From Candidatus Pelagibacter sp. RS40 (GTDB taxonomy: Bacteria > Pseudomonadota > Alphaproteobacteria > Pelagibacterales > Pelagibacteraceae): a stretch of 64,000 nucleotides of DNA. The notes beneath the pieces were generated by a model that worked only from the letters and a program-made list of their open reading frames with translations, was not told the origin of the DNA and did no database searches. Each line of letters opens with the position of its first letter. The stretch's first letter is position 1. This document shows, in pieces, positions 32,955 to 44,443 of the stretch. Where the stretch lies: positions 310,001 through 374,000 of the forward strand of contig NZ_CP020778.1 of NCBI RefSeq assembly GCF_002101295.1. Direction: 5' to 3'. Made by a program: the position numbers and the translations under genes.

Positions 32955-33031
32955 TGGTGGGCCCGCCAGGACTCGAACCTGGGACCAATACATTATGAGT
33001 GTACTGCTCTAACCAACTGAGCTACAGGCCC
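32955..33031 (-). tRNA. tRNA with anticodon CAT (tRNA-Ile2 or elongator tRNA-Met)
   Basis: A complete 77-nt cloverleaf reads on the minus strand: 7-bp acceptor (GGGCCTG/CGGGCCC), D-arm with TTGGTTA loop, anticodon loop with CAT, T-loop TTCGAGT, discriminator A and encoded CCA. The 5' half is identical in style to tRNA-Ile, so this could be the lysidine-modified Ile2 tRNA rather than elongator Met; the sequence alone does not settle it. Its 5' end faces the genomic island, so its promoter lies inside island DNA. Confidence 0.92.
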
Positions 33032-33162: not shown

Positions 33163-35262
33163 TTATAAACTTTTAAAAGTTTTTTCAGAAATTCCATTAA
33201 TTTTTACTTTTCGATATTTTAAAATTTTTTTTGCTGCATCTATAAATTTTGTATTTCTAAGTTCGTTACTTTTCTTAAAATCATAACCATAAATCCAAAC
33301 ATCTTTAAGATTATTTAGGTTTTTTAAACTGCTTAAATCTAAGTACTCTGAACAAAGAATGTTAATTGCATTCCCCTCTTTGTGATCTACTGAAAAATAG
33401 TTATAATATCTGAGTTTTTCTAATGATTTAATTTTTCCAAAGTTTGGTAAATTGTGTACTTGTAATATTCGTGCCATATAATACTGCTCATGATCATTAG
33501 CAGCATATCCTTTGTGATCTGAATATTCATCTGTTGGTTTTTCATTTTTTAAATCTTTAGGTACAATCACCTCAAAATCCTTAAGCTTTTTTGGATAAAT
33601 ATTTTTAGGAAATTCACCAAATGGTTCTCTCAACCAAGTGTGAATATCCGTTGATAATTTTTCTAAATTTGGGAGTTTGTATATTGCTTTAAAAAAAGAG
33701 CTAGCTGTATTCCAATCAATGATACAGGTATCCAAATGTAAATGTTTCAATTTCTTTAATTTTGATAAAGGTGACCAATCTTTTATATAATTCATATTTG
33801 CCAATACTAAATGCTCAATATCTTTTAGTTTTTCAATTTCGTTTAAACTTTTTGAATCTCTTAAATCAATTTTATCTACCTGAGCATATTTAAGCTTTTT
33901 TTTAATCGCATTTCTTAAATATGGACTTTCCTTATTTACCTTATTTACTATTAATTTACCTTTTTTGCTTTTATTTAAATAACAACCCTTAATGCCTTCA
34001 ACCACAATTTTTACATATGCAAATTCTCCCCCTTCCCCGTCATCAAACTCTTTGTCTTTATAACAATGTAAATAAACTGGATACTGACCTTTGTTTACTG
34101 GAAAAATAATTCTGGAAAGTGAAAAACTAATATCCTCTCTAAAATTATATCCATCAAATAATTCGGCTACACCCTCTGTATGAGATATTTCAAGTTTTTT
34201 TTCACTAAGCTTCTTTTTTTGCTTTTTTTTACCAAACGTGGGTAAATCTAATTCTTGAGGTTCAATATCTTTAATTATTCCTATAATGAAATCTTCAAAT
34301 AGTTTTTTTCTTATTTCAAAAGCTTTTTTAAAATTTTCTTTAAACAAAATTTTAGTTTGTTTTTTTAGTATTTGTATAGCTTTTGGAAGTCTATTAGAGA
34401 TATACTCACCAGATAATTTTACGTTTTTGTTGATAATATAATTGAAATTTGAGTACATATTTGCATCTTCATTGTACTCATCAGTATTTATCTTTAATAA
34501 ATAGTCTTCAAAAATATATTTAGTTGGGTAACAACCCTCATCCAATAAATTACTAAAAAATTCAGTAAACGTATAATTTATAGGTTCCTGATGAGGTTCT
34601 AATTTTTTGTGTATAACTGAAGAACCAAAGCTTGAGGGCTGAGCCTTTGTGATAAGTCCATATGAGAATTTAACTATAAGTATTGGTGTTGTATTTTGAA
34701 AAATTCCATTTTTTTTAAAATAATTTAAATCAATGTGCTCTTTTAGTTCTGAGTTGCTATCGATATCAAAACCATCATCGTTCCGTCCTAACAAAGATCT
34801 TAATGGCCCTGCATGGTCACCAACAGCAATAAGACCAGATTTTGAATTTAAATCAAATAATTTAATTCTATTTTCAGGAACTTTGTTAAAAAACTGATCA
34901 TTAAAATCTTCTTTATCCCACCAAAAGGAGCAATAACTTTGTCTGTCTTCAGGATGATCTCGATATTCTGATACTGTGGCTTCGGCAAATATTTTTTTTA
35001 CTCTATTTTTAGAGTCTACGCCTACGTATACGGAGTATCCTCCATCAGCTCCATTACCATATGAAATAGAGTTATACTTTGATGCATCAATATTTTTGAA
35101 GTGTTCAGTAACCTCTTTGACGCTAGGGGAGTCTATACCTGTGTCGAAATCATTACTTAATCTTTCACATAAATCACCAACTGTAACAGTTGCTGCATCA
35201 ACAGCATTCATTTCCAATAAATAAACATCTGTTATTGGATATGGATCTCTAAGTTTTTTCAT
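33163..35262 (-). CDS. Large leucine-rich-repeat-like protein of unknown function
   Basis: This 699-residue protein is the last gene of the seven-gene island operon, 23 bp after its neighbour. I do not recognise the N-terminal half; it contains glycine/aspartate-rich stretches (YGNGADGGYSVYVG near residue 65, AVGDHAGPLRSLLGRNDDG near residue 150) and a lysine-rich spacer (FGKKKQKKKLSEKK) near residue 348. From about residue 470 a leucine-rich-repeat pattern appears: IDLRDSKSLNEIEKL, IEHLVLANMNYI, LKKLKHLHLDTC, LPNLEKLSTD and LKNLNNLKDVWIYGYD. Such repeats usually bind proteins, so a recognition or scaffold role is plausible. There is no signal peptide. Confidence 0.7.
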   Translation of the reverse strand: MKKLRDPYPITDVYLLEMNAVDAATVTVGDLCERLSNDFDTGIDSPSVKEVTEHFKNIDASKYNSISYGNGADGGYSVYVGVDSKNRVKKIFAEATVSEYRDHPEDRQSYCSFWWDKEDFNDQFFNKVPENRIKLFDLNSKSGLIAVGDHAGPLRSLLGRNDDGFDIDSNSELKEHIDLNYFKKNGIFQNTTPILIVKFSYGLITKAQPSSFGSSVIHKKLEPHQEPINYTFTEFFSNLLDEGCYPTKYIFEDYLLKINTDEYNEDANMYSNFNYIINKNVKLSGEYISNRLPKAIQILKKQTKILFKENFKKAFEIRKKLFEDFIIGIIKDIEPQELDLPTFGKKKQKKKLSEKKLEISHTEGVAELFDGYNFREDISFSLSRIIFPVNKGQYPVYLHCYKDKEFDDGEGGEFAYVKIVVEGIKGCYLNKSKKGKLIVNKVNKESPYLRNAIKKKLKYAQVDKIDLRDSKSLNEIEKLKDIEHLVLANMNYIKDWSPLSKLKKLKHLHLDTCIIDWNTASSFFKAIYKLPNLEKLSTDIHTWLREPFGEFPKNIYPKKLKDFEVIVPKDLKNEKPTDEYSDHKGYAANDHEQYYMARILQVHNLPNFGKIKSLEKLRYYNYFSVDHKEGNAINILCSEYLDLSSLKNLNNLKDVWIYGYDFKKSNELRNTKFIDAAKKILKYRKVKINGISEKTFKSL

Positions 35263-35285
35263 AATAAATTACTAATTTTTACACT

Positions 35286-35873
35286 CTACTTTCTATTTTC
35301 TTCTATGACTTTTTTTATTAACTTTAAACTATCATCGTTTGGAGGATAGGAGCTATCAGAAGTTTTAAATAATTCTCCCCCGGTTTTAAGTCTTAGAGTA
35401 TTTCCACCTCTCTGTGTAACCTCAATATATAAATAAACACCAGGCTCCCTTAGTTGTTTTAATTTTTTTCTAAATTCTTTGGAAATTTTAACATCATATG
35501 GAGCTGTTTTAGATACCTGATTATCAAGTGTTTGGGGTTTTAAATTATTAACATTAAAACTTGGATCCTCTAAGCGACTGTAGATTATAGTTTCACCAAT
35601 TATAATTCCTTTAGGCAATTCTTTCTGTATTTGTTTAGCTGCACCTTCCACGCTTATAAAGCTATCCTTAGGTTGTTTTGCAAAGTACTTTTTAATTTCT
35701 TTATTTTTAATCTCGGTGACTGATCCAAACTGAAATTTATCCCCATACTCTTTTAAAACTTTTACTGTATGGCCGCTTTGGGGGCTTCCAGATGCACGAA
35801 TAATTTCACTTCTACTTTCCCAACTTGTATTTCCTTTCTTAAGTTGAGTGTCTAAAAATTCTCTAAATTTCAT
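35286..35873 (-). CDS. Hypothetical 195-residue island protein
   Basis: I recognise no family. It is soluble, basic, mixed alpha/beta in appearance, with GSPQSGHTVKVLKEYG near residue 29 and TQRGGNTLRLKTGGELF near residue 156. Its start shares one base with the stop of the upstream 115-residue gene, implying tight translational coupling. It is conserved in place inside the seven-gene operon, so it is probably a component of that system. Confidence 0.65.
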   Translation of the reverse strand: MKFREFLDTQLKKGNTSWESRSEIIRASGSPQSGHTVKVLKEYGDKFQFGSVTEIKNKEIKKYFAKQPKDSFISVEGAAKQIQKELPKGIIIGETIIYSRLEDPSFNVNNLKPQTLDNQVSKTAPYDVKISKEFRKKLKQLREPGVYLYIEVTQRGGNTLRLKTGGELFKTSDSSYPPNDDSLKLIKKVIEENRK

Positions 35874-36220
35874 TAATTAGTACTCAGATCTCGTTGTTTT
35901 TTAGTTCTAGCTCTATTTCTAAAAGTATCTTCATCTATTTGTTTATTCTCAAATTCTTTAATACTTTCTCCCGTTGAGTGTTTATAAATTTCTTTAATAG
36001 ATATTTTCCTTTTTCCATAATGACCGAACTTTAACCCTGTTCTTTCTGTTTCTTTTCTACTTAACAAAGCATTTTGTTTTTTTGGATTTAATTTACCCTC
36101 ACCACGAAAATCTTTCTTAGTCCATGTAGGATGTTTATCAATTATCTTTTGAATTTCTTCATTACTTCTCAGCACCCATTGGTTCAAACCTTTAGGATTT
36201 CTGTTATAATTTTTTTTCAT
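35873..36220 (-). CDS. Hypothetical basic 115-residue island protein
   Basis: I recognise no family. It is strongly basic (KKNYNRNPKGLNQ at the N-terminus; RARTKKQRDLSTN at the C-terminus) and has no hydrophobic segment, which would suit nucleic-acid binding. It overlaps the secreted 118-residue gene by 17 bp upstream and the 195-residue gene by 1 bp downstream. Confidence 0.6.
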   Translation of the reverse strand: MKKNYNRNPKGLNQWVLRSNEEIQKIIDKHPTWTKKDFRGEGKLNPKKQNALLSRKETERTGLKFGHYGKRKISIKEIYKHSTGESIKEFENKQIDEDTFRNRARTKKQRDLSTN

Positions 36221-36560
36221 CTCTAAAATTTTTTGGAACCCAATTTATTGGTGGTGTTTCTATTTCTTTAAAAAGATCTCCAAATAATTCGTTAAAACTA
36301 TTTTCAAAATTTGGATTAATAAAATTCTCTCTATTTTTTGCAGAATTAATAAAACGATGTTCTTCCATTGTCTTGCCCTCATAAGCCACCACATTGATAT
36401 AGCATTCATTTTTTGAATAGATTACATCTTGAATATCTTTTGCTAACTCTTTTTTAAGATACGATATCCATTCCTTTCTTTCGATATTACAATGGCTATC
36501 CGCATAAGAGAAATTAATCGTGAATATAGATAGCAATACTATTAAAAAAAACTTTTTCAT
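36204..36560 (-). CDS. Hypothetical small exported protein in the island operon
   Basis: This 118-residue protein starts with a clear signal peptide (KKFFLIVLLSIFTINFSYA, cleavage about residue 20). The mature part of about 98 residues has two Cys (SHCNIE and KNECYIN) that could form a disulfide. I recognise no family. It overlaps the nuclease-helicase gene by 4 bp, so it is translated with it. An exported partner in an operon built around a cytoplasmic nuclease is odd. Confidence 0.65.
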   Translation of the reverse strand: MKKFFLIVLLSIFTINFSYADSHCNIERKEWISYLKKELAKDIQDVIYSKNECYINVVAYEGKTMEEHRFINSAKNRENFINPNFENSFNELFGDLFKEIETPPINWVPKNFRDEKKL

Positions 36561-39500
36561 TTCTTAACCTCAAACATAAGAAGCTTACAAAAGTTATTCA
36601 TTAACCTCATTTCATGTATACTGTTGGCAGATGCTAATAAAAGATTAGGATTGAAAAGAATGATAGCAACATTTTGAGCTCTGGAGATTGCAACATTAAG
36701 CCTATTTCTATTAAAGAAAAAATCTTTGTGTCTTGGAAGATTTTCTGCATCCGAACTAGTCATTGATATAAAGACTACTTTTGCTTCTTGCCCTTGAAAT
36801 AAATCTATCGTACCAATTCTTGTATCCTCAGAATGTTTTTTTAATAATTTTTGTTTAATATTATTTGTTTGAACATTAAAAGGTGCAACAACCATAATAT
36901 TTTCAATATCAATTTTTCCTTTTCCATTCTCATCTTCAAAATCTTTTTTTATTATTTTTGAGTAATAATTATGCACAATCTCAGCTTCCTCATCTGACCT
37001 TTGAGAGTTTCCAAAGTGATCAGTCGGGATAAAAAATATTCCTTCATCCTCAATATTTTTAAGACCTAGATTTACTGATCTACTTTCTGTAATTTTATGA
37101 GGAATTAGCCTAGAGTCATAAAAGCTATCAGATATATATTTGCATATTTGTTTATTTAATCGTCTTGTTTCTCTTAAAAATATCCCTTGTTCTGGTGGAA
37201 TTGTATCTCTATTTTCCAAAATATAATCAAGCGCACTTAGTTTGGCATATCCCTCATGCGTTCCTCTAATTGGTTGGGATAGCTGCATCTGGTCACCAAT
37301 AAGCACTAAATTTTTAGCACTAGTAGCCATAGAGATTGTATTTGCCAAAGAAACTTGTCCAGCCTCATCTATAAAAAGATAATCTAAAGTTTGATCCATT
37401 CTCATATTTGAAAAAAACCAAGCTGTCCCAGCAAATAAAGAAAAATCTTTTATATCTATTAACTTATCTTTAATTACATCGATGATGAATTCTCCTTCAA
37501 ATAAATTGGTATTACTACTCTTTTTAATTCCTTTGAATTTAAAGCTTTCAGCTTTTGCCTGCCTTTCAATTTCAAATAAAAGATTTTTTATTGCTTCATG
37601 TGAGTTACTAGAGACACCAACTTTTTTTCCATCTTTCATCAGCTCTATGATTATCTTAGCGCTGTTATAAGTTTTACCTGTTCCCGGAGGTCCTTGAATA
37701 CTTAAACAAGTATTTTTCATTTGTTTAATTATTTTTACAGACTCACTAGTAATATTTTCACTTTCATTAATTAATGGATCTCCAGATTTAATATCTTTTA
37801 GATCAGGGTTTCCTCTGTTCAGTAGGTCAATTATAGATTTATAGTTTGAACCTTTTTTGTTTATGTAATCTTCAACAAATCGATTTAAAGCTTGCTCGAG
37901 CACTGCAATATTAGGGGCTCCCCTTCTAGAAAGTGAGACTACACTTGGCATTTCACCCATAGAATTATATTTTTTTTCTGAAAGCTTAATTTTGACAATA
38001 TTCTTATTAGGTGATTGCTCAATTATTTCTTCAATTTTTCCAATTGAGGTATTCATATGAGCATCATAGACGCTCGAATCTTTTTTTAGTTTATAATCTT
38101 GATCGTTAAACTGGTATGTAAAAATAAAACTTTTATCTACTTTTTCAGGCTTAGGAGATTGAAGAATGCATTGTCCAATGCACTCAGCATCTTCTTCTAA
38201 CTCATCATGTGTTTTTTCCATTCTATCAAACATTTCCCACCATTCCGGTTTCTGCTCTCTTCTATGAAAGCCAACAAGATTCCTAATTGTTTGAGTTAAA
38301 GGATTTTTTGCTATTTCTTTTTTATCTAGTGCTTCGAGTAATTCTACTTCAGCCTCCTCCCAAGGTTTTTTATCGTATGATTTTTTCTCATCCTCTGGAG
38401 TAATAGAGTACCATTCAATTGTATCTGGTTTATTTTTAATTAAAAACTCTCTTAATTGATAAGTTGATACACAGTCTTCTTTATTGTACTCAATTATATC
38501 TTTCTTTGTGTCTTCATTTTTAGAAGTTAACCAGTAATCATAAAGTTTTACACTGTCTTCAGCTTTTTTAACATCTCCTTTTCTTTGAAAATTATATAAA
38601 ACTCCTTCAATAGATTTAAGAGACATATCTTTTTCTGAGGTTCTTGCGCATTGATTAATTATTAAAAATAGATCTACAAACTTCTCTGCTCTCAGAAGCG
38701 TGTCCACAAAATTACTTCCCTCTGGAAAATCAGATGAATAAAGACTTGCGAGTTGTCTTAATGAACGTTTTTCATAAGAGTTGTAGTGATAAAGATGGGC
38801 TTTTGGATACTTTTTAAAATGATTCTTGAGAAATTCTATTAATTCAACAAAGTTTTCTTTTTCATATTTCTTTTTAAAATCTTTTGCCCAGAAGAATTTA
38901 AACTCATAATCATTTTTATTTTTAAAATAAATACCATGTAGATATTCGAACCCGCGTCCATCTTCCTGAGGAAAACCTTCAATATCAAAAAATAGATCAC
39001 CGTCATCTGGTTCAGGTAACTTATAAAATCCTTTTCCTTTATCAGAGTCCAAAATAATGTATTTGCTTTGACCTGTTTCTCTTTTCTCCTCTTGGAGTTG
39101 AGCTTGTGAAATTCTATCCTTTAAAGCCTGTTTATTGATTTTAACTTTTAATTTATCTATATTTGCTTCTGCTAGCTGTTTAACTGTAGTTATTCCAACT
39201 TTTTTTAATTTTTCGATTTGAGATTTGTTAATTTTTGCAACTTGGTTAATATAATTATCCCTCTCCCAAATATTTTCACATACTTCTGTATAATCACATA
39301 CTGCACAATTAGAATTTTTTTCAGGATAAATATTTTCTTTAGAAATGTTTTTTAAATAAATTTCAAAATTGTTTTTTGTAAACAAATAAAAATCTAAAAA
39401 TTCTTTGGTTTTATATTTATGGATTATATCTGAACCATCAATTAAATACATTGCCTCGGGAAGAATTCCTTGTATTTTGCTGAGCATAGAAGAGTAGGCT

Positions 39501-39943
39501 GTTATCTGATAAATATGTCTAGGTCTTGGCTTTCTACTAACTTTTGTATCGTATACCTCGTAACTAAAATTACCTATGTTTGATTTGGTATCGTTTTTTA
39601 TAAGAAAGTCCGCTTCCCCTCTAAAGTTATCATCAATAAAATAGGCATGATAAATTAAATCAAATCCTTCCTTAATTGCCTTCACAGTTTGTTTGAATCT
39701 TTCTTCTTCTTTCAAATCCTGCTTAATCGATATGACATTTTTGTATTCTTCCTTAAGTAATTTGAAATGTTTGTTTTCATGCTTAAGACCAAATTCTTTC
39801 CAAAGCTTTTTGTCTATACTTTCCTGATTTCTTTGAATTTCCTTATTTAAAAATTTGATTTCATTTTTAATGAGATACTTGCAGCTAACAAAGTTATTTA
39901 AATCACTTGGTGACGTAAAAATTTTATTATTTAAAATCTTCAT
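36557..39943 (-). CDS. RecB-type nuclease / RNase H-like / SF1 helicase fusion (TM0106-like)
   Basis: This 1128-residue protein resembles the TM0106-like RecB-family nucleases fused to a Dna2/UPF1-type helicase. Residues 1-230 form a PD-(D/E)XK nuclease: GEAD at 109-112, D132-T-K134, and Q146 with Y150. Four Cys (21, 213, 216, 222) suit an iron-sulfur cluster as in AddB and Cas4. A DEDD-like RNase H region starts with DIE at 320-322 and includes YNKEDCVSTYQL further on. The C-terminal SF1 helicase has Walker A GPPGTGKT near residue 750, FIDEAGQ, IGDQMQLSQP, LRETRRLN, GTIDLFQGQEAKVV and NVAISRA. All catalytic motifs look intact. Members of this family have no settled role. It is the core of a tightly overlapping operon inside a tRNA-bounded island, which suggests nucleic-acid-targeting defence. 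Confidence 0.85.
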   Translation of the reverse strand: MKILNNKIFTSPSDLNNFVSCKYLIKNEIKFLNKEIQRNQESIDKKLWKEFGLKHENKHFKLLKEEYKNVISIKQDLKEEERFKQTVKAIKEGFDLIYHAYFIDDNFRGEADFLIKNDTKSNIGNFSYEVYDTKVSRKPRPRHIYQITAYSSMLSKIQGILPEAMYLIDGSDIIHKYKTKEFLDFYLFTKNNFEIYLKNISKENIYPEKNSNCAVCDYTEVCENIWERDNYINQVAKINKSQIEKLKKVGITTVKQLAEANIDKLKVKINKQALKDRISQAQLQEEKRETGQSKYIILDSDKGKGFYKLPEPDDGDLFFDIEGFPQEDGRGFEYLHGIYFKNKNDYEFKFFWAKDFKKKYEKENFVELIEFLKNHFKKYPKAHLYHYNSYEKRSLRQLASLYSSDFPEGSNFVDTLLRAEKFVDLFLIINQCARTSEKDMSLKSIEGVLYNFQRKGDVKKAEDSVKLYDYWLTSKNEDTKKDIIEYNKEDCVSTYQLREFLIKNKPDTIEWYSITPEDEKKSYDKKPWEEAEVELLEALDKKEIAKNPLTQTIRNLVGFHRREQKPEWWEMFDRMEKTHDELEEDAECIGQCILQSPKPEKVDKSFIFTYQFNDQDYKLKKDSSVYDAHMNTSIGKIEEIIEQSPNKNIVKIKLSEKKYNSMGEMPSVVSLSRRGAPNIAVLEQALNRFVEDYINKKGSNYKSIIDLLNRGNPDLKDIKSGDPLINESENITSESVKIIKQMKNTCLSIQGPPGTGKTYNSAKIIIELMKDGKKVGVSSNSHEAIKNLLFEIERQAKAESFKFKGIKKSSNTNLFEGEFIIDVIKDKLIDIKDFSLFAGTAWFFSNMRMDQTLDYLFIDEAGQVSLANTISMATSAKNLVLIGDQMQLSQPIRGTHEGYAKLSALDYILENRDTIPPEQGIFLRETRRLNKQICKYISDSFYDSRLIPHKITESRSVNLGLKNIEDEGIFFIPTDHFGNSQRSDEEAEIVHNYYSKIIKKDFEDENGKGKIDIENIMVVAPFNVQTNNIKQKLLKKHSEDTRIGTIDLFQGQEAKVVFISMTSSDAENLPRHKDFFFNRNRLNVAISRAQNVAIILFNPNLLLASANSIHEMRLMNNFCKLLMFEVKK

Positions 39944-40211
39944 AGTCTCCTAGTTCTTTAGATAGTACTTTTATTTCGACCTGATTTTTTTTGTACTCAT
40001 GAACCATTCTTAAATACCTAAATAATCTGAGTAAATTGTAAGGCAAAAAATAAATATCTAAAACTAATTTAAGTATAGGTTTTGACTTATAATATTCTTT
40101 ATCTGCTTTTTTAGTTATTTGTTTATTTGCAATATATAAATCAACTGAATTTTTCCAATCTTTGCAGTAGGACAGCCTATCTTTCATTTTATTCCTTAAA
40201 AAATTTTTCAT
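39927..40211 (-). CDS. Hypothetical 94-residue island protein
   Basis: I recognise no family. It is basic, with a moderately hydrophobic middle (ILKLVLDIYFLPYNLLRLFRYL near residues 46-67) that could be a membrane-associated amphipathic helix. A charged C-terminal helix follows (EYKKNQVEIKVLSKEL). It overlaps the nuclease-helicase start by 17 bp and shares one base with the upstream gene. Confidence 0.6.
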   Translation of the reverse strand: MKNFLRNKMKDRLSYCKDWKNSVDLYIANKQITKKADKEYYKSKPILKLVLDIYFLPYNLLRLFRYLRMVHEYKKNQVEIKVLSKELGDYEDFK

Positions 40212-40480
40212 TAATGAACCGTCCTTTCTTTTTGCATACTTTCGTATTCAATTTTTCCTATTATTAATCTTAAGTTTTTCATCAATTTTTCCCATTTCTC
40301 CTCATGTTTATTAGGATTTAACCAAGGCAGGTCATTTGGCTCAAGATCCAATATATTACAAAGTATGCCATCTATATTTTGTAAGAGCTTCTGCCTTTCA
40401 TCAGGAGTTTGAATGGATAGTAATTGTATTAAATTGTCATGACTTTGATTGTCATTTGATTGTTTGAGTTTTTTACTCAT
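40211..40480 (-). CDS. Hypothetical 89-residue protein, first gene of the island operon
   Basis: I recognise no family. It is a mostly helical, soluble protein (DNLIQLLSIQTPDERQKLL; a short LPWLNPNKHEEKW segment). A good Shine-Dalgarno (AGAGG, 5 bases before ATG) supports the start. As promoter-proximal gene next to a dyad-rich control region it might be regulatory, but no helix-turn-helix is evident. Confidence 0.6.
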   Translation of the reverse strand: MSKKLKQSNDNQSHDNLIQLLSIQTPDERQKLLQNIDGILCNILDLEPNDLPWLNPNKHEEKWEKLMKNLRLIIGKIEYESMQKERTVH

Positions 40481-40922: not shown

Positions 40923-41963
40923 ATGAATTTCTATGTAAGGAAACTTGGCCATCAAGAATTAAGCTATACTGAAGGAAAAGGCGGTAAGCAAAGAGGGAGA
41001 TACATACTCTTCTCAAAAAAATTTAGAGATTTTTTTCCTCCATTTGATCTAGATGTAGATGATAGATCCAGATTAATTGGAGTAATTGACGATACATCTA
41101 GAAAAGTAACTTATTGTTATTTTAATTGGCACAAGGGTAAAAAATTCAATCAAAGTAAACACTTAGGATCAGATTTAAGATTTTATTTAAATAAAGATTC
41201 CTTTCCCTCTCATGATCATTTCAGGCCAGGTGATTATGCTGTTTTTTTTAGATATCAAATTAAATCAAATGAGGAGATAGATAATTATTATAAAATTTTT
41301 CGATTTTCTCCATTAAATTCTGAGTATAATGAATTAGAAAAACTTACTTCAAAAGAGCATAGGGTAATTAAAAATCGCAGAACATATCATGGAACTTTCG
41401 AGGAACTTAACTTTATAAATACATCCGATATAGAACTTGAAAATTTTGTTTTTTCAAAAAAGGCCAAAATCAAATACAAAAATCCTGAGACGATCTGTAA
41501 TACACAAAATGAATTTAAGGAATATGTTAGAATAGCTTACAATTTTAAGTGTTGTGTCTTAGGAGATAAAATAGATCTCACCGTAGATAATGAGAATAAT
41601 GAAAAATCTTACATGAATGTGCAGGCTGCACATTTGTGGCCAGACTCATGGTTCGGACCTCTTAGACCAAGTAACGGAATATTGCTAAGTTTAGATCTTC
41701 ATTGGGCGTTTGATATAGGTCAGTTTACTATTGATAATGATTACAAAATATTAGTCCATGAAACTCTAAAAGATAAGCCTATAGGTAAATACCACGGAAA
41801 AAAAATATTTATACCTGAAGATGAGATATATCAGCCAGATCAAAGATATTTAGAAGTCCATAGAAAATTCGTTTTTGGAAGATTAAAACCATTAGGCGTA
41901 GATAAGCCAATTGGACTATCTCAATATTTAAGAGATAATTTTAAAATCACTTTAGATAAATAA
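40923..41963 (+). CDS. HNH endonuclease, probable restriction enzyme
   Basis: The 346-residue protein has an unrecognised N-terminal part and a C-terminal HNH_2-type nuclease domain: YNFKCCVLG near residue 207, VQAAHLWP with the first catalytic His near residue 236, then LRPSNGILLSLDLHWAFDIGQF near residues 248-269 supplying Asn and the last His. This NGLLL-x-LHWAFD pattern is common in restriction endonucleases. Its neighbour is a pair of C5-cytosine methyltransferases on the opposite strand, which supports a restriction-modification role. Its last 43 bp overlap the 3' end of the first methyltransferase gene in antisense. The target site is unknown. Confidence 0.82.
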   Translation: MNFYVRKLGHQELSYTEGKGGKQRGRYILFSKKFRDFFPPFDLDVDDRSRLIGVIDDTSRKVTYCYFNWHKGKKFNQSKHLGSDLRFYLNKDSFPSHDHFRPGDYAVFFRYQIKSNEEIDNYYKIFRFSPLNSEYNELEKLTSKEHRVIKNRRTYHGTFEELNFINTSDIELENFVFSKKAKIKYKNPETICNTQNEFKEYVRIAYNFKCCVLGDKIDLTVDNENNEKSYMNVQAAHLWPDSWFGPLRPSNGILLSLDLHWAFDIGQFTIDNDYKILVHETLKDKPIGKYHGKKIFIPEDEIYQPDQRYLEVHRKFVFGRLKPLGVDKPIGLSQYLRDNFKITLDK

Positions 41964-43075
41964 TCAGAAAATTTAGGCGGAACTGCATTACCAATCATTT
42001 TATATTGTTCAGTCATTGGTCCAACAAATTTAAAATTGTCGGGAAAAGATTGAAGCCTTGCTGCTTCTCTTACCGTAATTGATCGTGCTTGTTTAGAATC
42101 GTAATGAATATGTCTCAAGCCATCTTTATATAAATGTGAAGGTATAAGATTACTAGGCTCGTCTTTTCTAAGCACATAATATTTATGAATATTAGATTTT
42201 TTTCCAACAATTTTTGTATAAAGTTTTTGTAATTCTTTTACTGTTTTATACTTGAATTTCTTTTTCTCTATATCTTCAGCTAAAAGTTTAAAAATCTTTA
42301 TATCTCTCTCATTATGAAATCTTGGGTAATGATCTGGTTTATTTGAATTTGATTTGTGGGATAATTTTCTTCCTTTAATCTTTATAATTTTGTTTAAAGG
42401 ATAAAATTTATCCAAATCTCCAATAGCTTGTTTTACAGTAATTATTTTTTTTAGTTCTTGGGATCTTAATGTTTCGTAAAATTTCTTTGATATTGATTTG
42501 AAGTTTTTTAATTTTTTACTTACTCCAAATATAATCACTCTTTTCCTTTTCTGAGGTACGCCGTATTTAGATAAATCAAATACACATTCAGATAAATTTT
42601 CAGGGATATAATATTTGATTTTATCAGTTTCTTTTTTAATTCTAACTGTAACTTTGATATTTCCTGGTTTTGCACTCAGCATTCCTGGAACATTCTCCAT
42701 TACAAAGAACTTCGGTTGGCTGTAATTAATAATCTTGAGAAATGACTCAAAAAGGTAATTTCTATAATCTTTTTTCATACCATGCTTATCTCTAATTCTG
42801 CCTGCAACTGAATAAGCCTGACATGGAGGCCCTCCAATCACAATATCTGACTTAATGTTTTTGAAATCATTAATTGTTTTATTGCTTGAAATATCCTTTA
42901 GTTGCGCAATTTTTTCAGGATTTTTAAACTTAAGTTTTTTAAGTCTATGAATTGTAGTGTCGTAGCAAAATTTATCATTATCAATAATTTTTATTGGAGA
43001 GAATTTTTTATTGTTTAAAAAGGCCTCCGTTAAACCACCACAACCTGAAAATAAATCTATAAATTTAATACTCAT
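41921..43075 (-). CDS. C5-cytosine DNA methyltransferase (second of a pair)
   Basis: It transfers a methyl group from SAM to C5 of cytosine. The 384 residues show the ordered m5C motifs: I FIDLFSGCGGL, IV GGPPCQAYS with the catalytic Cys near residue 84, VI MENVPG, VIII YGVPQKRKRVIIFG, a target-recognition region at about 190-330, then IX-X with REAARLQSFPDNF and IGNAVPP. Motifs are intact, so it should be active. It follows the other methyltransferase with a 1-base overlap and is antisense to the HNH gene at its 3' end. Confidence 0.93.
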   Translation of the reverse strand: MSIKFIDLFSGCGGLTEAFLNNKKFSPIKIIDNDKFCYDTTIHRLKKLKFKNPEKIAQLKDISSNKTINDFKNIKSDIVIGGPPCQAYSVAGRIRDKHGMKKDYRNYLFESFLKIINYSQPKFFVMENVPGMLSAKPGNIKVTVRIKKETDKIKYYIPENLSECVFDLSKYGVPQKRKRVIIFGVSKKLKNFKSISKKFYETLRSQELKKIITVKQAIGDLDKFYPLNKIIKIKGRKLSHKSNSNKPDHYPRFHNERDIKIFKLLAEDIEKKKFKYKTVKELQKLYTKIVGKKSNIHKYYVLRKDEPSNLIPSHLYKDGLRHIHYDSKQARSITVREAARLQSFPDNFKFVGPMTEQYKMIGNAVPPKFSDYLSKVILKLSLKY

Positions 43076-44103
43076 TAAAGAAATTTCTTAAGTTCTTTCG
43101 CAATTTTAAATGCTAATAAAGGTGGCACAGCATTTCCTACCTGAACATTTTGAGAAGTTTTTGTTCCTAAAAATTCAAAACTATCTTTAAAAGATTGAAG
43201 TCTAGCATTTTCTCTTATTGTTGGCACTCTATTCCATTTGTAATGAAAATGATTTCTGTGACCTGTATCTATTGTTCTTGAGGGTTTTTTACTGTGATAT
43301 CTGGTCCAAGCCTCATTAAACTTTCTACTATCACCTACTCCTTTTGGTAGATCTTTATAATTACCACCTTCTGGGACTAAAGCTATTGTGTCTTTTACAA
43401 ATTGCTTATGCAATGTAGCTTCATGGTTATAAATTTTATTACTATCCATTACATACCTTTGATAGTTTGTTATTGGTTTTTCGTTATAATCATTACTTTT
43501 TAATTCTCCATTCTCAAGACTTGGTAGATTACCTATAGCCTCACCACATGTGATATAATCATCTTTATCAAATTCTGGTTTAGGAAATTCAAATTTTTTA
43601 TTAATTTCTTTTTTTATACCTACAATAAACACTCTATGTCTAATTTGTGGAACTCCATAATCAGCTGAATTTAATAAACTTTCGGTAACTATATATCCTG
43701 CACTTTCAAATTTTTTAATTATCTCCTTAAAAACATTTCCTTCCCACATGGTTTTTAAACCCCTTACATTCTCAACTACAAAAGCTTTTGGATTTGTTAA
43801 TTTTAAAGTTTCAAAAACTGATAAATATAATTTATTTCTTGGATCATCAATATTTCTAGGTCCAGTAAGAGAAAATCCTTGGCAAGGAGGACCAGCAACA
43901 ACTATATCTGACTTAGGAATATCTTTAAGAATATTGCTATCACCTAAGTCTAAATTTCTTGTTTGAGAATCTTTAAAGTTATGTGAAAAAGTTTTTAAAA
44001 ATGCTTCTTGATTGTCTACAGCGACTTGGATCTTAAATCCTGCTTCTTTAAAGCCTTGTGAAAGACCACCACAACCTGAAAAAAAATCATTAACTGAAAG
44101 CAT
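43075..44103 (-). CDS. C5-cytosine DNA methyltransferase (first of a pair)
   Basis: The 342 residues carry intact m5C motifs: FFSGCGGLSQGF, AGPPCQGFS (catalytic Cys near residue 74), VENVRG, YGVPQIRHRVFIVG, and late ENARLQSF with VGNAVPP. Its target-recognition region differs from its neighbour, so the two may modify different strands of an asymmetric site or different sites. It is the first island gene read from the right end, 164 bp inside the right attachment repeat. It may be driven by the promoter of the interrupted tRNA. Confidence 0.93.
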   Translation of the reverse strand: MLSVNDFFSGCGGLSQGFKEAGFKIQVAVDNQEAFLKTFSHNFKDSQTRNLDLGDSNILKDIPKSDIVVAGPPCQGFSLTGPRNIDDPRNKLYLSVFETLKLTNPKAFVVENVRGLKTMWEGNVFKEIIKKFESAGYIVTESLLNSADYGVPQIRHRVFIVGIKKEINKKFEFPKPEFDKDDYITCGEAIGNLPSLENGELKSNDYNEKPITNYQRYVMDSNKIYNHEATLHKQFVKDTIALVPEGGNYKDLPKGVGDSRKFNEAWTRYHSKKPSRTIDTGHRNHFHYKWNRVPTIRENARLQSFKDSFEFLGTKTSQNVQVGNAVPPLLAFKIAKELKKFL

Positions 44104-44192: not shown

Positions 44193-44267
44193 ATTTTAAT
44201 TGAAAAAAATTTTCTCTAATGGAGGTTGATTTTCAATACTTATTTGAGATATTTTTTTGAGACTTAA

Positions 44268-44307
44268 ATTATGAGTGTACTGCTCTAACCAACTGAGCTA
44301 CAGGCCC
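44268..44307 (-). pseudogene. Truncated tRNA (5' half only) left by integration
   Basis: On the minus strand this reads from the 5' end of the CAT tRNA through the anticodon and then stops matching. The next bases have no T-arm or acceptor 3' strand. It cannot form a tRNA. It keeps the original upstream flank, next to tRNA-Val and rpoD. Confidence 0.85.
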
Positions 44308-44368: not shown

Positions 44369-44443
44369 TGGTGGGCCGTGTTGGTTACGCTCCAACTACC
44401 CCTGCAATGTCAATGCAGTACTCTACTATTGAGCTAACGGCCC
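44369..44443 (-). tRNA. Atypical tRNA-Val (anticodon GAC)
   Basis: A 75-nt cloverleaf with perfect acceptor (GGGCCGT/ACGGCCC), anticodon (CTGCA/TGCAG) and T stems (GTTGG/CCAAC), anticodon GAC, and encoded CCA. The D-loop (AATAGTA) lacks the usual GG, and the T-loop is AGCGTAA instead of a TTCRA-type loop, so both partners of the normal elbow contact are changed. Its 5' end is 2 bases after the rpoD stop, so it is probably cut from the rpoD transcript. Confidence 0.88.

Follow-up and report, generated by a model that had tools for sequence, protein, structure and literature searches.

Seven minus-strand open reading frames (33163-40480), built around a nuclease-helicase gene, lie in the window, by which we mean the whole stretch of 64,000 nucleotides analysed here. 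They raise two questions: do they form one system, and does this system defend its SAR11 host against phages or plasmids, as a preliminary description made from the sequence had guessed?

Layout and conservation of the operon

The seven ORFs are joined by overlaps of 1, 17, 4, 17 and 1 bp and by one gap of 23 bp, exactly as first described; the interval then given for the system (36557-40480) has the right ORF positions but covers the first three genes only. Read along the minus strand, they encode p89 (89 aa, 40211-40480), p94 (94 aa, a coiled-coil hairpin according to its predicted structure, 39927-40211), the core (1128 aa, 36557-39943), in which profile matches point to a nuclease, a DEDDy exonuclease and an SF1 helicase, p118 (118 aa, 36204-36560), p115 (115 aa, basic, 35873-36220), p195 (195 aa, conserved, 35286-35873) and an LRR-like protein (699 aa, 33163-35262).

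The first six genes are found again in a SAR11 single-cell genome (AG-894-A03, locus L167), where the order p89-p94-core-p118-p115-p195 is the same as in the window and the core again has 1128 residues. Between the two loci, dN/dS amounts to 0.054 for p89, 0.073 for p94, 0.059 for the core, 0.187 for p118, 0.066 for p115 and 0.051 for p195. This six-gene set, which is the operon of the window minus the LRR gene, is under purifying selection and, since its genes keep their order in AG-894-A03 under this selection, it is not a product of chance. A further genome (G010) carries p53-p94-core, with a core 85% identical to ours, up to the end of its contig. The pattern scan for p195 over 85,000 species genomes returned 15 loci, L167 among them, and all lie in Pelagibacteraceae. 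At the rpoD site the usual order is p89-p53-p94-nuclease-p51-p115-p195, with an optional LRR gene at the end.

All seven genes had been taken for one system. This does not hold as stated: six of them recur in order in L167, and the LRR gene falls outside the set. It is replaced by two unrelated short ORFs downstream of p195 in L167 and occupies a different position in L051, and for this reason we rejected it as an obligatory part. In another genome (G012) a gene 64% identical to it lies at another hotspot, between DUF2130 and another gene, and no match to the LRR protein was found in plasmids. The LRR-like protein is a variable accessory. It gave weak LRR matches, and p89, p94, p118, p115 and p195 gave no convincing match in Pfam, NCBIfam, PADLOC or PHROGs, which agrees with the first reading, where none of the partners had been recognised.

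The core enzyme

The core scores 234 bits against TIGR03491, the model of the TM0106 family of RecB-like nucleases, whose cut-off is 97.45, and the alignment joins residues 13-501 to positions 4-462 of the 462 in the model. The Pfam domains RNase_H_2 (E 5e-24), AAA_11 (E 2e-11) and AAA_12 (E 2e-24) were also detected. The resulting architecture combines a RecB/Cas4-like nuclease with four cysteines, a DEDDy exonuclease of RNase-H fold and an SF1 helicase of the Upf1/IGHMBP2/Dna2 type, to which the nearest PDB sequences are IGHMBP2/SMUBP-2, Upf1 and Dna2.

We followed the conservation of residues in 24 homologues of the core, both from SAR11 and plasmid-borne. The nuclease residues D112, D132 and K134, the DEDDy residues D320, E322, D424, Y486 and D490, as well as the Walker A K757 and the Walker B D859-E860, are invariant or nearly so, and the majority of the homologues retain the four cysteines C21, C213, C216 and C222. 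As far as profiles and residues can tell, the core is a full-length member of the TM0106/TIGR03491 family with intact predicted catalytic sites; the intact RecB-type nuclease, four-Cys cluster, RNase H-like region and SF1 helicase announced by the preliminary description are all recovered.

The partner proteins

The AlphaFold2 model of p94 (pLDDT 92) places helices at residues 2-41, 45-54 and 56-93, that is, a predicted helical (coiled-coil) hairpin, and that of p195 (pLDDT 82) has a helical N-terminal half and a C-terminus of three strands and a helix. Neither a PDB sequence search nor Foldseek yielded a relative of use for p94 or p195, and the PDB sequence search yielded none for p115 and p89 either. 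The match of p89 to borealin was rejected and taken as a coincidence between coiled coils.

Longer relatives of p89 have an N-terminal segment which on inspection looks like a ribbon-helix-helix (RHH), with no match in a Pfam search, and p89 is probably a regulator or an antitoxin-like partner. One could go further and imagine a toxin-antitoxin-like abortive system, in which an RHH-derived p89 would hold back a nuclease which, once released by infection, breaks down the chromosome of its own host. The likeness of these relatives to RHH antitoxins and the position of the small genes upstream of the nuclease, as in toxin-antitoxin operons, speak for such a system, but the short forms of p89, including that of the window, are devoid of the RHH part and the core family does without p89 outside SAR11. 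We hold this reading to be very improbable.

An apparent signal peptide (MKKFFLIVLLSIFTINFSYA) is present in p118, which was seen outside the window in L167 only. At its start, p115 has a stretch of ~73 residues with up to 64% identity to a domain found in marine viral contigs (L148-L160), in a protein whose gene lies between those of the large terminase subunit and the portal. The phage and host forms of this domain fall into separate clades, hence its sharing does not result from a recent transfer. Several relatives of p115, longer host forms, have an added zinc motif of the endonuclease VII type; the one tested matched an endonuclease VII PHROG (E 6e-8) and a Lar-like PHROG (E 3e-5). In two of the viral contigs with the p115-type domain we also noticed a c17-like exonuclease related to exonucleases of SAR11 hotspots. 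Searches of viral contigs gave no match for p94 and p195, and those of annotated phages gave none for p94, p115, p195 and the core.

A constant module with exchanged nucleases

The p94 gene is present in 44 of the 397 genomes sampled from the order (SAR11); in a class-wide sample its single match outside SAR11 was weak and contained a stop, and none was convincing. Among the 48 p94 loci fetched, 42 have a nuclease of the swapping families in the same operon: TM0106-helicase, RmuC, DUF2130, DUF2779 or one of three Cas4-like or MGME1-like PD-(D/E)XK families. We take RmuC and DUF2130 to be members of the PD-(D/E)XK superfamily too. An SbcB-like (DEDDh) exonuclease is found in 15 of the 48 operons. 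Nuclease genes account for 60/292 inside p94 operons versus 18/727 outside (Fisher 4e-20, a value which is indicative only, as the genomes are related). TIGR03491 is present in 15 of the 397 SAR11 genomes, that is, in 8 of the 44 carriers of p94 versus 7 of the 353 others (Fisher 4e-5, again indicative only, since related genomes are not independent), and p94 is near the TM0106 nuclease gene in all eight genomes having both. At least three of the TM0106 genomes lacking p94 have the gene at the trx-folC hotspot, near it, or in company with the same partners (RmuC, SbcB-like, p186 or p157).

The constant part is p94, often accompanied by p89, p53, p115 and p195, and the nuclease swaps. The small genes had been tied to the nuclease-helicase, with the expectation that they would be conserved with it elsewhere. 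They are indeed conserved, but they are common to operons with other nucleases and the core occurs without them outside SAR11, so that only half of the expectation came true.

The second SAR11 hotspot (L104-L123) lies on the trx-folC-accD side, between thioredoxin/folC and the genes upstream, and is occupied by many different combinations of RmuC, SbcB-like, WGR, GHKL and TM0106 genes. Three loci (L112, L113, L114) associate p94 with a GHKL-type ATPase, two or three unknown proteins, a Vsr endonuclease and a C5-methyltransferase, which makes them a different type of cassette. In one genome (locus L143) a TM0106 nuclease-helicase is located away from both hotspots and adjoins a DNA methyltransferase-like gene and the gene of a GIY-YIG-like protein. 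Six other loci (L047, L085, L091, L141, L144 and L172) share a neighbouring module of a DnaK-like ATPase, an M48-type peptidase and a long LRR-like protein, completed in some of them by a PDZ-like protein; this looks like another undescribed SAR11 island system.

An island between two tRNA genes

The island that contains the operon lies in the window within the 11.3 kb that separate tRNA-Val (44369-44443, minus strand) from an intact tRNA-Met (32955-33031, minus strand), the latter being one of its boundaries. Comparison with other genomes shows that it is a real insertion: in four of the seven genomes checked the two tRNA genes are spaced by 58-66 bp, which is the empty site, and in the three others a different cargo is found between them. 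The end of the island on the rpoD side bears an attachment-site-like partial copy of tRNA-Met, consisting of its 5' ~43 nt (44265-44307, minus strand), which repeats 32989-33031; an exact 28-mer of this direct repeat occurs at these two places only, with 0 expected. The 5' half of tRNA-Met is duplicated in two other genomes as well, G107 (L195) and G216 (L099), and in the second it surrounds a p89-p53-Cas4-like-p94 cassette.

Next to the operon are the gene of an HNH endonuclease (40923-41963, plus strand; HNH_2 E 4e-9, NF045808 E 2e-14, which is below its cut-off) and those of two C5-cytosine methyltransferases (41921-44103, minus strand). The corresponding interval of G107 contains only a methyltransferase pair, two small ORFs and an HNH gene unlike that of the window. 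Because G107 possesses methyltransferases and HNH without the nuclease operon, the restriction-modification module is separate from the operon, and the island is a mobile insertion in which the two are distinct cargo. The location in a tRNA-bounded island beside restriction-modification genes, already proposed from the sequence, is thereby established. Within the restriction module itself (40923-44103 compared with G107/L195), the methyltransferases are 96% identical and the accompanying HNH genes only 37%: the nuclease part has been exchanged and the methyltransferases kept. A search for an RNA component found none.

The operon might also be cargo of a tRNA-Met-integrating element, similar to a phage satellite, with its integrase lost or provided in trans, which would exclude rival phages or elements to its own benefit. 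The duplication of the tRNA-Met half at the ends of the island speaks for such an element, and the p115 domain held in common with a phage packaging-region protein, together with the c17-like exonucleases of two of those phage contigs, points the same way. Yet no integrase or packaging gene was recognised among the ORFs of the island, and the same types of cassette are also present at the trx-folC site. We consider such competition between elements improbable.

Relatives of the core outside SAR11

Relatives of the core with at least 80% coverage are carried by 59 plasmid records, the best 40 of the 59 being 31-35% identical to it; the plasmid proteins annotated as TM0106 family are 33-35% identical over 98-99% of its length. 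We inspected 16 plasmid neighbourhoods, hand-picked for diversity, so that the counts are raw counts within this sample. A divergent WYL-domain regulator is adjacent or one gene away in 8 of these 16 hand-picked neighbourhoods, and WYL regulators accompany defence systems (PMC9122601, PMC4012209). Other plasmid neighbourhoods contain BrxL (BREX), McrC (McrBC), HEPN, SIR2 or Abi genes, or else ubiquitin-like/ThiF, RmuC, dGTPase or DUF3883 genes. None of p89, p94, p118, p115 and p195 is annotated beside the 16 sampled copies. In this sample of 16, full-length TM0106-helicases outside SAR11 occupy defence neighbourhoods, and these contexts support the early best guess of defence.

The main rival to defence is a DNA repair or recombination module, in which a Dna2/AddB-like end-resection enzyme and its partners would act on broken or stalled DNA and SAR11 lineages would exchange equivalent nucleases (RmuC, SbcB, Cas4-like). 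All these members are repair-type enzymes; RmuC, SbcB and RecB-like proteins serve in repair too, which counts against the defence reading. The kinship of the helicase with IGHMBP2, Upf1 and Dna2 agrees with repair, as does one plasmid copy of the core family located near SOS and polymerase genes. One of the hotspots adjoins the housekeeping genes trx-folC-accD, and this second hotspot could be a repair locus. However, a presence as patchy as that of p94 (44/397) and TM0106 (15/397), the insertion at a tRNA site which is otherwise empty, the restriction genes nearby and the defence-type neighbours elsewhere are at odds with a housekeeping role. We judge it unlikely, and the least unlikely of the rivals.

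A proposed mobile cassette with an exchangeable effector

Our preferred reading, to which we give a probability of about 60%, is that the operon is a mobile SAR11 anti-phage or anti-plasmid cassette, in which a fixed module of small proteins would be combined with an exchangeable DNA-degrading effector. We infer defence from the conserved order of six genes with dN/dS of 0.05-0.19, from the swapping of nucleases around p94 and the enrichment of TM0106 with p94, from the intact catalytic residues, the insertion at a tRNA site and the defence-type neighbours of core relatives elsewhere, and also because RmuC is the core of Shield and the RmuC and SbcB-like partners of SAR11 match reverse transcriptase-associated models of PADLOC.

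The cassette of the window, a Dna2-like effector within the set of small genes, probably destroys the DNA of phages or plasmids in a manner not described before. In such a mechanism p115 and p195, which look nucleic-acid-binding, and the p94 hairpin would guide the enzyme to foreign DNA or hold it there, for instance at free ends or unusual structures in phage DNA that is being injected or replicated; the SF1 helicase would unwind this DNA and the Cas4-like and DEDDy nuclease sites would cut its strands. The p89 protein, some relatives of which are RHH-like, may restrain either the cassette or the effector, and in sister loci RmuC, DUF2130, DUF2779 or Cas4-like nucleases would be driven by this same module.

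A more specific version, which we put forward tentatively and find somewhat less probable than its negation, is that of a new SAR11 defence family with p94 as the constant adaptor, accessory recognition proteins and swapped nuclease effectors (TM0106-helicase, RmuC, DUF2130, DUF2779, Cas4-like); p115 would have a phage-related origin, common with that of the phage packaging-region protein, and would perhaps recognise phage DNA or particles. SAR11 bacteria are among the most abundant organisms on Earth. A small constant module accepting many types of nuclease would amount to a new principle in the organisation of defence operons, and it would give testable partners for nuclease families without a settled function (TM0106, DUF2130, DUF2779).

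Comparison with known systems

In the operon and the neighbouring genes, PADLOC matched generic helicase, nuclease and methyltransferase parts only, and the expectation that no named defence system would be matched was borne out. Mokosh was rejected because the best MkoA/MkoC matches do not go beyond the helicase region (about residues 833-1114). A link with CRISPR Cas4 was rejected as well, the Cas4 profile matches being weak (E 1e-5); apart from these, neither the operon nor the proteins around it gave a convincing cas match, and no repeat array was seen within the island. So was membership in BREX or restriction-modification, as there is no BREX match in the operon and the methyltransferases and HNH are separate cargo. 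In sister SAR11 loci the RmuC and SbcB-like proteins match the PADLOC models RTasRmuC (E 2e-49) and RTasSbcB (E 3e-24), which describe partners of defence-associated reverse transcriptases, but these proteins are absent from the operon of the window, and a scan for the YxDD motif near SAR11 RmuC/SbcB gave no convincing reverse transcriptase. Since no PADLOC system matched and our literature searches for TM0106 and TIGR03491 found no biology paper on the family and its function, the operon corresponds to no named system and is new at least as a combination.

With the TM0106/TIGR03491 family the operon shares the full-length core and the same catalytic residues; elsewhere TM0106 stands alone or beside a WYL regulator, whereas the SAR11 copy has p89, p94, p118, p115 and p195 as partners. 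As in Dna2, AddB and the Cas4-helicases, the core joins in one chain an SF1 helicase from the Upf1/Dna2 group and a Cas4-type nuclease, the latter having a Cx2Cx5C motif and a further Cys upstream of it; unlike them, the core has a DEDDy exonuclease domain between nuclease and helicase and sits in accessory islands. Gabija and Hachiman pair a helicase, which senses or unwinds DNA, with a nuclease for its degradation (PMC12407980, PMC12278908). They would be work-alikes of the SAR11 cassette made of different proteins, and neither Gabija (GajA-GajB) nor Hachiman (HamA-HamB) has a PADLOC match in the operon.

Finally, the RmuC domain (ShdA) is the core of Shield, a proven anti-phage system (PMC10270631). 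The operon of the window does not belong to Shield, as it has no RmuC match and RmuC occurs in sister loci only. Both are nevertheless small multi-gene systems with a DNA-degrading core and variable partners, and some sister SAR11 cassettes contain RmuC itself. Shield keeps RmuC and varies the partners, while the SAR11 cassette keeps the small partner and varies the nuclease. By analogy, Shield is the nearest counterpart of this cassette, with the constant and the variable parts exchanged.
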